Shown: in pieces, positions 50,834-52,225 of the stretch
Layout: each line of letters opens with the position of its first letter
How positions within the stretch are numbered: position 1 is the stretch's first letter
Assembly: GCA_017524145.1 (NCBI GenBank)
Contig: JAFWUI010000025.1
Coordinates: 1-52,413, forward strand
DNA from: Oxalobacter sp.
GTDB lineage: Bacteria > Pseudomonadota > Gammaproteobacteria > Burkholderiales > Burkholderiaceae_D
Reading direction: 5' to 3'
Length of the DNA stretch: 52,413 nucleotides
Translations under genes and position numbers: made by a program
The notes under the pieces: model-generated
Databases searched by the model: none
Told to the model about the DNA's origin: nothing
Seen by the model: the letters and a program-made list of their open reading frames with translations, nothing else

Positions 50834-50896
50834 GCCGTATTCCTAACAGAACAATAGCTATATTTTAATCCATATGGTTGAAATATTTTCAAATCA

Positions 50897-51220
50897 TCAG
50901 ATATTCCGTCTTGCCATCAATGCCTGATAAAAAGATTCCTGATGTTGCCAGAAGTCCGAGGTATCAATTTTCCCGGCTTTCAGATCTGCCAGATAGCCAG
51001 GAATCTGTGATGCCTTGATATGACGGAGTGTTTCAAGCCTCCCCTCATCAACCCAGGCATCCAAGTCATTGCCATACCAGCCTAATGCAGTATCACCATC
51101 CATCAGATCCGAAACATCCTTGGCAAGCCTCTCAGGGCTATCGTAAACATGGCAGAAATCATCATCAGGCACCTGCAACTGAAGATGGCCACTCGGATAA
51201 AAGATAACGCACATTTCCAT
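50897..51220 (-). CDS. Hypothetical protein
   Basis: Soluble acidic protein of 107 aa. The start at ATG 51220 fits GGAAGGAG at good spacing and gives MEMCVIFYPSGHLQLQVPDD. A central GDTALGWYGNDLDAWVDEG and a C-terminal FWQHQESFYQALMARR are notable, but no family is recognised. It lies 107 nt downstream of the small SOS-type membrane ORF on the same strand with no evident terminator between, so it might be co-transcribed with it. Confidence 0.65.
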   Translation of the reverse strand: MEMCVIFYPSGHLQLQVPDDDFCHVYDSPERLAKDVSDLMDGDTALGWYGNDLDAWVDEGRLETLRHIKASQIPGYLADLKAGKIDTSDFWQHQESFYQALMARRNI

Positions 51221-51327
51221 CCATCCACTCCTTCCGGCTGAACCAGTACGCATCATCTTAACCGAAAAAGCCGGTCTATGCCCATATCACCTATCTTGAG
51301 TCCCTCAAGCATATCCTGGGTCCAAAT

Positions 51328-51423
51328 TCAAAAACCGAATGGCAACTGACAGATCATGATGACGACAAAAACAGAACCGATAAAGGTCAGTACATCCATA
51401 ACTTCAGAAGTGGTTTCATCCAT
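51328..51423 (-). CDS. Putative SOS-controlled small membrane peptide (31 aa)
   Basis: ATG 51423 behind GAAAGGAAAG, 31 codons, TGA at 51328-51330. The peptide has an acidic N-terminus (MDETTSEVMD) and one membrane-length hydrophobic stretch (VLTFIGSVFVVIMICQLPF), ending GF. Four LexA-like boxes lie within 126 nt upstream, overlapping a likely promoter. Size, topology and apparent LexA control recall TisB and DinQ of E. coli and SidA of Caulobacter, but no sequence match is claimed. A toxin, a division inhibitor or a modulator of a membrane protein are all possible. Confidence 0.65.
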   Translation of the reverse strand: MDETTSEVMDVLTFIGSVFVVIMICQLPFGF

Positions 51424-51452
51424 GATTCTTTCCTTTCTATAACTTGATAATA

Positions 51453-51548
51453 CTGTTCATCAACACAGTGTATTTATGTACAGTATTTTACCGCCACTTT
51501 TGAAAACTGTATACATTAACAGTTGAATATTACTGAAAATAACAACAG
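51453..51548 (-). promoter_or_regulatory. Cluster of four LexA-like SOS boxes and promoter
   Basis: CTGT-N8-ACAG cores on the plus strand: 51453-51468 (perfect), 51468-51483 (GTGT for CTGT), 51507-51522 (perfect) and 51533-51548 (CTGA for CTGT). The minus-strand promoter TATACA (51508-51513), 17 nt, TAAAAT (51485-51490) lies inside the cluster. The third box covers the -35 and the second the expected start site near 51478. Confidence 0.7.
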
Positions 51549-51691
51549 TCAAATACTGGATCAATCAACCGGCAAAAAGGAAAGATTTCCAGTCCAGCCC
51601 GCGATGATGGGCATGGCAATACCCGGAAGGCAAGCAAGGATATTGAATAACCTATTGATTTATCAGAGGATATCGTGAAAATAACGGACCA

Positions 51692-52225
51692 TCATTCCTT
51701 ATCAGTCAGGAAGTCACGTTCAATCAGGATGTCTGGGTCAAGCTCTTTGGCATAGGATTTCTCGATTTTATCGATGAACGCCTCTTTCCCGCCCATTGCA
51801 TTGATCAACGAAGTGGGACGGCGCTTTTTCGTAAGAAGCGCCTGCATGATATAGACATAATAGTTGAGGATTCCCGGAATATGGTCCCAGCGTTTAGGGG
51901 CAATCGAGGTGTACAACCATCTGTCTGTAAAATGGATGGGGTCTTCACAGGATTTATGCGCTTTCCGTAATGTCGGCTTATAGACATCCCCCAGGATATC
52001 CTTGATGAAGTCGATATCTGCCTCCTGGCTACGCAGTTCCTGAGTCACTGACCGTTCATAATCTTCAACTTCTGGATATCTCTTCTGGAATTCCTGGATA
52101 GCTTCAACCCCTTCCCGGATCTGTTGCATCCGTGGGCTCTTGTTGTACCAGTCCTTGATCAGTTTCGGTAAACAGACAATGATTACTGCTGCAACCACTG
52201 CCACCACAATCATCCAAGTTTCCAT
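51692..52225 (-). CDS. Membrane-anchored protein of unknown function
   Basis: 177 aa. One N-terminal membrane segment (MIVVAVVAAVIIVCLPKLI, residues 5-23), a charged helical stretch (about 30-75: EGVEAIQEFQKRYPEVEDY), then a compact region with FTDRWLYTSIAPKRWDHIPG and YVYIMQALLTKKRRPTS. Probably bitopic with a cytoplasmic C-terminus. No family is recognised. It precedes the SOS-box cluster on the same strand by 144 nt. Confidence 0.68.
   Translation of the reverse strand: METWMIVVAVVAAVIIVCLPKLIKDWYNKSPRMQQIREGVEAIQEFQKRYPEVEDYERSVTQELRSQEADIDFIKDILGDVYKPTLRKAHKSCEDPIHFTDRWLYTSIAPKRWDHIPGILNYYVYIMQALLTKKRRPTSLINAMGGKEAFIDKIEKSYAKELDPDILIERDFLTDKE

Follow-up and report, generated by a model that had tools for sequence, protein, structure and literature searches.

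The window, by which the whole analysed stretch of 52,413 nt is meant, carries on its minus strand a gene for a 31-residue hydrophobic peptide, preceded by a tight cluster of LexA-type boxes. The gene, its conservation among relatives, the purifying selection acting on it and the box cluster are established by computation. It is well supported that the peptide is ordinary in kind and new in identity, representing a new family of LexA-controlled micropeptides. The role proposed below, that of a damage-induced checkpoint or division inhibitor, is a tentative one.

The features on which the analysis is based are listed here in window coordinates; ranks and bits refer to a scoring matrix for LexA boxes of the genus, and G010 is a second Oxalobacter genome.

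50897..51220, minus strand: 107-aa gene downstream of the peptide gene, listed as a 119-aa ORF from 51256; the start given here fits the relatives
51328..51423, minus strand: 31-aa hydrophobic peptide gene (MDETTSEVMDVLTFIGSVFVVIMICQLPFGF) with an ATG start, from the ORF list and its translation
51427..51438, minus strand: Shine-Dalgarno-like stretch (AGAAAGGAAAGA) directly 5' of the peptide ATG
51453..51468, unstranded: perfect putative LexA box (CTGTTCATCAACACAG) in the predicted leader; rank 2, 14.6 bits; a perfect box at -45 from the ATG is also present in G010
51468..51483, unstranded: putative LexA box with one mismatch (GTGTATTTATGTACAG) over the inferred transcription start; rank 3, 14.0 bits; kept at -60 in G010
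51485..51513, minus strand: sigma-70-like promoter TATACA-17-TAAAAT from the promoter scan, overlapped or flanked by the boxes
51507..51522, unstranded: perfect putative LexA box (CTGTTAATGTATACAG on the minus strand) over the -35 element; rank 1, 20.2 bits
51533..51548, unstranded: weak fourth LexA-like box with one mismatch; rank 4, 12.6 bits; absent from G010
51692..52225, minus strand: 177-aa ORF, the upstream neighbour on the same strand

Conservation and properties of the peptide

The ATG of the 31-codon frame is adjoined by the Shine-Dalgarno-like motif AGAAAGGA, and a ribosome site of the AAGG or GGAG type lies upstream of the start in all five homologues identified. These homologues come from a set of 13 Oxalobacter genomes, which includes the host genome of the window, a draft of 1.81 Mb that is 87% complete and of which the window is contig 8. 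Five of the 13 genomes contain the peptide gene, namely the window genome, G010, G009, G011 and G003. The G010 peptide is 100% identical to that of the window, and the peptides of G009, G011 and G003 align to it with 45-50% identity. Over the four distinct sequences the residues M1, S6, E7, D10, L12, F14, S17, V20, V21, I22, Q26 and P28 are invariant.

Between the window and G010 the reading frame has undergone eight substitutions, all eight of which are synonymous, against an expected fraction of 0.22-0.27 (P about 5e-6 to 3e-5). Past the stop codon the ungapped identity between the same two genomes drops to 16 of 60 positions. Purifying selection is acting on the amino-acid sequence of the peptide, and not on its translation alone. 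Taken together with the box pairs described below, the synonymous-only change and the collapse of identity past the stop delimit a conserved unit that extends from the promoter through the stop codon.

Each of the five peptides has one hydrophobic segment, with a best 15-residue Kyte-Doolittle mean of 2.8-2.9. The net charge over the peptides ranges from -4 to -1, the window peptide having four acidic and no basic residues. A membrane helix is predicted from the hydropathy, and insertion of the peptide in the membrane is quite probable. Conservation by helix face, a pattern that would indicate a specific partner, gave p values of 0.037 for residues 5-28 and of 0.19 and 0.44 for narrower ranges. 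The window peptide has no match in Pfam, NCBIfam, PHROGs or PADLOC, and the other members show non-significant matches only (Pfam CydS, E 0.053; PGG, E 0.059; a PHROG, E 0.068).

The first-pass annotation of the window had described a 31-codon ORF with a ribosome-binding site and a single hydrophobic segment, and this description is borne out by the conservation in 5 of 13 genomes and by the synonymous-only change relative to G010. The search of related genomes for the frame together with its upstream boxes, which the same annotation had suggested, returned the five homologues, each of them with a box pair.

LexA boxes and promoter

As had been stated before, the upstream region contains two perfect CTGT-N8-ACAG motifs (51453 and 51507) and two with one mismatch (51468 and 51533). 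The box at 51507 is one base away from the recA box of the window genome, CTGTTAATATATACAG. The scoring matrix was constructed from 14 distinct perfect boxes that the genus has at recA, lexA and uvrA/ssb, with the boxes of the peptide left out; because it was trained on perfect boxes only, its CTGT and ACAG letters are fixed by construction. With this matrix the best site outside the cluster in the 52-kb window scores 12.1 bits. The fourth box (51533) appears to be barely above background and, as it is not conserved in G010, is perhaps dispensable.

A lone perfect site carries no meaning, since the 1.8-Mb genome contains 62 perfect CTGT-N8-ACAG sites versus 60 for a reversed control pattern; the initial estimate that about one such motif would occur by chance in a window of this size was about right. 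The case rests on the cluster, the AT-rich core and conservation. Two perfect sites within 96 nt were found in none of 400 dinucleotide shuffles of the window and in none of 20,000 shuffles restricted to the local AT-rich sequence, and the four-site cluster was likewise reached in none of the window or local shuffles. These shuffles, together with the ranks of 1-4 in the window, confirm the earlier claim that the cluster is unlikely to be accidental.

The box positions relative to the ATG, -99, -60 and -45, are the same in the window and G010. In G009, G011 and G003 two boxes are found 25 nt apart, the second of which has one mismatch in G003. Four of the five homologues have two perfect boxes upstream and G003 has one perfect and one single-mismatch box, such that every homologue possesses one perfect box or more, together with another that has no more than one mismatch.

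The TATACA-17-TAAAAT promoter of the first-pass annotation was recovered at 51513-51485 on the minus strand. The stretch scanned there contains two promoter-like sites versus 3.3 expected from shuffles, so that this site alone is no evidence. Equivalent promoters overlapping the boxes are present in G010, G009 and G011, and in G003 no promoter is found at the scan threshold. The predicted leader, as placed from the -10 element, would be ~55 nt long; its folding is no better than that of shuffles (z -1.5 to 0.36).

The SOS regulon of the genus

The boxes over the peptide promoter are of the same CTGT-N8-ACAG kind as the recA and lexA boxes of the genus. At recA a perfect box is present in 10 of the 13 genomes and a one-mismatch box in G007, with none in G004 and G008. 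Ten lexA-type loci were read, six of which have a perfect promoter box and two a box with one mismatch; no promoter box was found at the lexA-type loci of G004 and of G012, the latter being a partial match. The lexA promoter of the window genome itself is located beyond the contig end.

Strict AT-rich boxes occur at four distinct sites in the window genome: the peptide gene, recA, a uvrA/ssb-like pair and one site without an evident gene. In the genus 20 strict-box loci, about half of its strict-box places, include uvrA/ssb, umuC-, umuD- and dinG-like genes, several loci having no evident SOS gene; apart from recA and lexA, these gene names are what we take the frames to encode from reading them. 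No second membrane peptide is evident among the ORFs of these 20 loci, when ATG ORFs with a ribosome-site-like stretch or ORFs of more than 100 aa are considered. Four tandem-box places were found in the genus, including G010:C13 and G002:C134.

Control of the peptide gene by LexA, as predicted from its boxes, is very probable indeed. The proposal of a LexA-controlled (SOS) membrane peptide, already made in the first-pass annotation, is very likely correct, given boxes that rank 1-4, that are kept in all five homologues and that are alike to those of recA and lexA in the genus.

A perfect AT-rich LexA-type box is also located 15-16 nt before a 187-aa ORF at the loci L140, L142 and L154 (G001, G012 and G005, respectively), which makes this ORF a candidate clade-specific SOS gene. 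The three genomes belong to the other Oxalobacter clade; the recA stretches of G001 and G012 are identical, and the three perhaps represent two lines.

Neighbouring genes

Over the five loci the 107-aa gene begins about 107-266 nt after the peptide stop codon. It is present in the same five genomes as the peptide and, in addition, in G004. Scans of the five loci revealed no terminator between the two genes, a weak hairpin at L008 being located inside the peptide ORF, and the 107-aa gene is possibly the second gene of the putative LexA-controlled transcript. Searches of Pfam, NCBIfam and PADLOC gave no match of the 107-aa protein below E 0.1, and its best PHROG match has an E of 0.026. An apparent break of this gene in G010 was rejected: the in-match TGA sits just before the true start, and the gene is intact, with a length of 107 rather than 119 aa.

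The 177-aa ORF is regarded as a neighbour, with no claim of membership of the SOS unit; its homologue in G003 shows a DUF4179 match below cut-off (E 0.0006). The flanks of the peptide gene, i.e. the 107-aa gene and an M20-type peptidase, occur in the five peptide genomes and G004 and in none of the seven others. The gene array around the peptide (window 50897-52225 and L103:3900-6180) has no match over a curated cut-off. Its members are the 177-aa protein, with an N-terminal hydrophobic stretch, the 107-aa protein and a 255-aa protein which is present in G003, G009 and G011 and absent from the window.

Distribution beyond the genus

A profile of the five peptides, searched against 116 family genomes, found nothing outside Oxalobacter below E 0.06. 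Three matches outside the genus among 399 order genomes (E 0.006-0.025) have no box with at most one mismatch and were dropped as chance. In the genome search, which gave matches in 7 of 60 genomes at E up to 10, those in G001 and G030 (E 1.3 and 1.4) lie within frames of 279 and 377 aa and were likewise discarded. A scan of named genomes yielded three loci, all from Oxalobacter: O. paraformigenes HOxBLS (L078), an assembly titled O. formigenes (L077) and Oxalobacter sp. (L076). Nothing was found in viral contigs and phages searched with the peptide, or in plasmids searched with the 119-aa ORF. It is well supported by these searches that, as far as they extend, the family is confined to part of Oxalobacter and has no significant homologue outside the genus.

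The peptide had been called undescribed, which agrees with the literature searched: among titles and abstract openings, a coverage that leaves most subscription papers outside, no description of the peptide and no paper on it or on the Oxalobacter SOS regulon was found. In its main text, the Oxalobacter genome paper PMC9812493 makes no mention of SOS, LexA, recA, toxin, DNA damage or small protein.

Proposed function and alternatives

With boxes located over the leader, the start site and the -35 element, the arrangement fits simple repression by LexA that is lifted on damage. As long as cells are undamaged, LexA dimers would cover these elements, the leader in its early part, and block transcription; upon damage RecA would trigger self-cleavage of LexA, allowing the short leader to be transcribed. 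The peptide would be translated directly from its good ribosome site and then inserted in the inner membrane as a single helix. There it would most likely contact a membrane protein, with the divisome (FtsW/FtsI/FtsN) as the first candidate, and thereby hold up division or growth for a time, as a checkpoint in a genus where SulA has not been detected. This whole chain, a SidA-like checkpoint or division inhibitor with its target class included and its action proposed by analogy, is given a probability of roughly 0.45. It is favoured over a toxin of the TisB/DinQ kind because no consistent antisense sign is present, no SulA is found over the cut-off, and SidA is the nearest functional model.

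Caulobacter, the host of SidA, belongs to another class of bacteria, and its LexA box differs from the CTGT-N8-ACAG type found here. By description, SidA and the window peptide share their size class and are both small membrane peptides, LexA control being indicated by the boxes in the present case; SidA is described as a peptide of 29 aa that is SOS-induced, resides in the inner membrane and interacts with FtsW (PMC4211646). The SOS-induced division inhibitors SulA, YneA and SosA are alike in the proposed role only. SulA differs in that the window peptide has no Pfam match and SulA itself (PF03846) is over the Pfam cut-off in none of the 13 genomes of the genus, as judged with a weak model that is over the cut-off in only 1 of 14 control genomes and gives matches in two (E. 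coli and B. subtilis). Two of the 13 genomes give sub-cut-off matches: G002 (E 0.037) and the window genome (E 0.03), where the match is interrupted by a stop. Against the checkpoint reading, the seven Oxalobacter genomes outside the peptide clade, three of which are under 80% or at 85% complete, have neither the peptide nor SulA over the cut-off, so that SulA-less Oxalobacter seems not to need the peptide.

Of the alternatives, the one that survives best, although it is rather improbable, is that the peptide, induced by damage, modulates a respiratory, transport or envelope complex and is neither a toxin nor a division inhibitor. The peptide would then be of the small-subunit type and possibly act with the 107-aa protein, next to which it is encoded in all five peptide genomes, with no intervening terminator seen at any of the five loci. 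The conserved polar residues S6, E7, D10, S17 and Q26 and the conserved P28 suggest a partner, and one of the five members has the weak Pfam CydS match (E 0.053). However, this match is not significant and is restricted to that one member, and G004 has the 107-aa gene without the peptide, which indicates that the two are separable.

It is considered unlikely that the peptide is a LexA-controlled type I toxin like TisB or DinQ, one that an antisense RNA keeps in check and that in excess depolarises the membrane, causing growth arrest or persistence. In E. coli TisB is described as held back by IstR-1 and DinQ by AgrB (PMC8309996, PMC3567139). TisB (29 aa) resembles the Oxalobacter peptide in size, hydrophobicity and LexA-controlled promoter (PMC8309996), as does DinQ (27 aa) in size, single hydrophobic segment and LexA operator (PMC3567139). 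In contrast, TisB is net basic with three basic residues and DinQ has two, whereas the window peptide has four acidic residues and none that is basic. DinQ furthermore has a GTG start instead of ATG, and no alignment to either toxin was obtained at E up to 100, a weak test for peptides so short. Type I toxins that have no positive residues in their C-terminal part are described, DinQ among them (PMC8309996), and charge is therefore not decisive against a toxin.

The antisense partner expected for such a toxin, raised as a possibility in the first-pass annotation by analogy with tisB/istR, did not find support in these scans. Promoter scan, repeats and Rfam yielded no sign shared by all five loci: no antitoxin RNA of Rfam was matched, no agr-like antisense gene was recognised and no convincing counterpart of IstR-1 was seen, and the leader, as noted above, folds no better than shuffles. 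Signs in favour come from single loci. At L010 a plus-strand promoter-like site (1610-1637) diverges from the ORF in the way istR diverges from tisB, and at L011 a direct repeat (18 nt, 83%) lies between the ORF and the downstream gap, but each is present in only one of the five loci. Repeats touching the leader or ORF are found at L008, L010 and L011; they are short and not common to the loci. Before the ORF, plus-strand promoter-like sites are found at a distance of 420-600 nt only, namely at 50878 in the window, at 1020 in L008 and at 972 in L010, and the counts of promoter-like sites are about those of shuffles at all loci except L010 (6 vs 2.1). A TTGAAA-16-GATATT site on the plus strand, situated at the end of the downstream gene and pointing at the peptide gene, is present both in the window (50878-50905) and in G010 (L008 1020-1047).

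It is very unlikely that the regulated product is the 107-aa protein, with the 31-codon ORF merely adjusting the expression of that protein as a leader or upstream ORF. The 107-aa gene does follow on the same strand at the stated distance in all five loci, but selection acts on the amino-acid sequence of the peptide itself, the length of the gap differs about 2.5-fold among the loci, and the two closest genomes are dissimilar over its first 60 nt. Pure chance, with an untranslated ORF or boxes that are not LexA sites, could appeal to perfect boxes being no commoner in the genome than the reversed pattern, but is made extremely improbable by the cluster relative to shuffles, the synonymous-only change, the boxes of all five homologues, the recA boxes of the genus and the matrix ranks of 1-4.

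Genomes without the peptide

G004 is the only member of the clade without the peptide, and it also has no boxes at recA and lexA. A recA tree groups it with G010 and the host genome of the window (support 100/99); a separate branch (99/98) holds the seven genomes that have neither the peptide nor its neighbours. The distance from the 177-aa gene to the downstream gene is 44 nt in G004 versus 471 nt in the window, and the G004 interval contains neither the peptide nor any box with up to one mismatch. The LexA protein of G004 (L026, G004:C32:76558-77184) aligns over its full length to solved LexA structures and has kept the DNA-binding half. The Ala-Gly bond, Ser119 and Lys156 have established roles in E. 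coli LexA. In G004 Ala-Gly has become Pro-Gly, the Ser119 position is Ala and the Lys156 position is Arg; Ala-Gly, Ser and Lys are all kept in the nine other LexA rows. The G004 protein looks like a natural uncleavable LexA, with the SOS switch lost.

The co-loss in G004 speaks for LexA control of the peptide gene, as a single case, an anecdote rather than a statistic. Among the seven other genomes, several have recA and lexA boxes and no peptide, which implies that the peptide is not obligatory for SOS. The fuller scenario, in which the peptide is an SOS division checkpoint in part of Oxalobacter, forms a new acidic family without sequence kinship to TisB or DinQ and was discarded when the sister species G004 lost LexA self-cleavage, is somewhat unlikely to hold in all its parts. 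In G008, a genome that is 87% complete, no LexA is found over the family cut-off and recA has no box with at most one mismatch; a second loss of the SOS system is possible there.

Biological implications

To our knowledge, how division is paused after DNA damage in bacteria without SulA has been settled in only a few groups. The Oxalobacter peptide provides a small, sharply delimited and testable checkpoint candidate in an oxalate-degrading gut symbiont. G004, in which the LexA self-cleavage residues, the recA and lexA boxes and the peptide are all missing, offers a natural comparison and, if the fuller scenario is true, would represent the natural dismantling of an SOS checkpoint. Conserved LexA boxes combined with synonymous-only change may provide a way to find SOS micropeptides that are too short for ordinary annotation.
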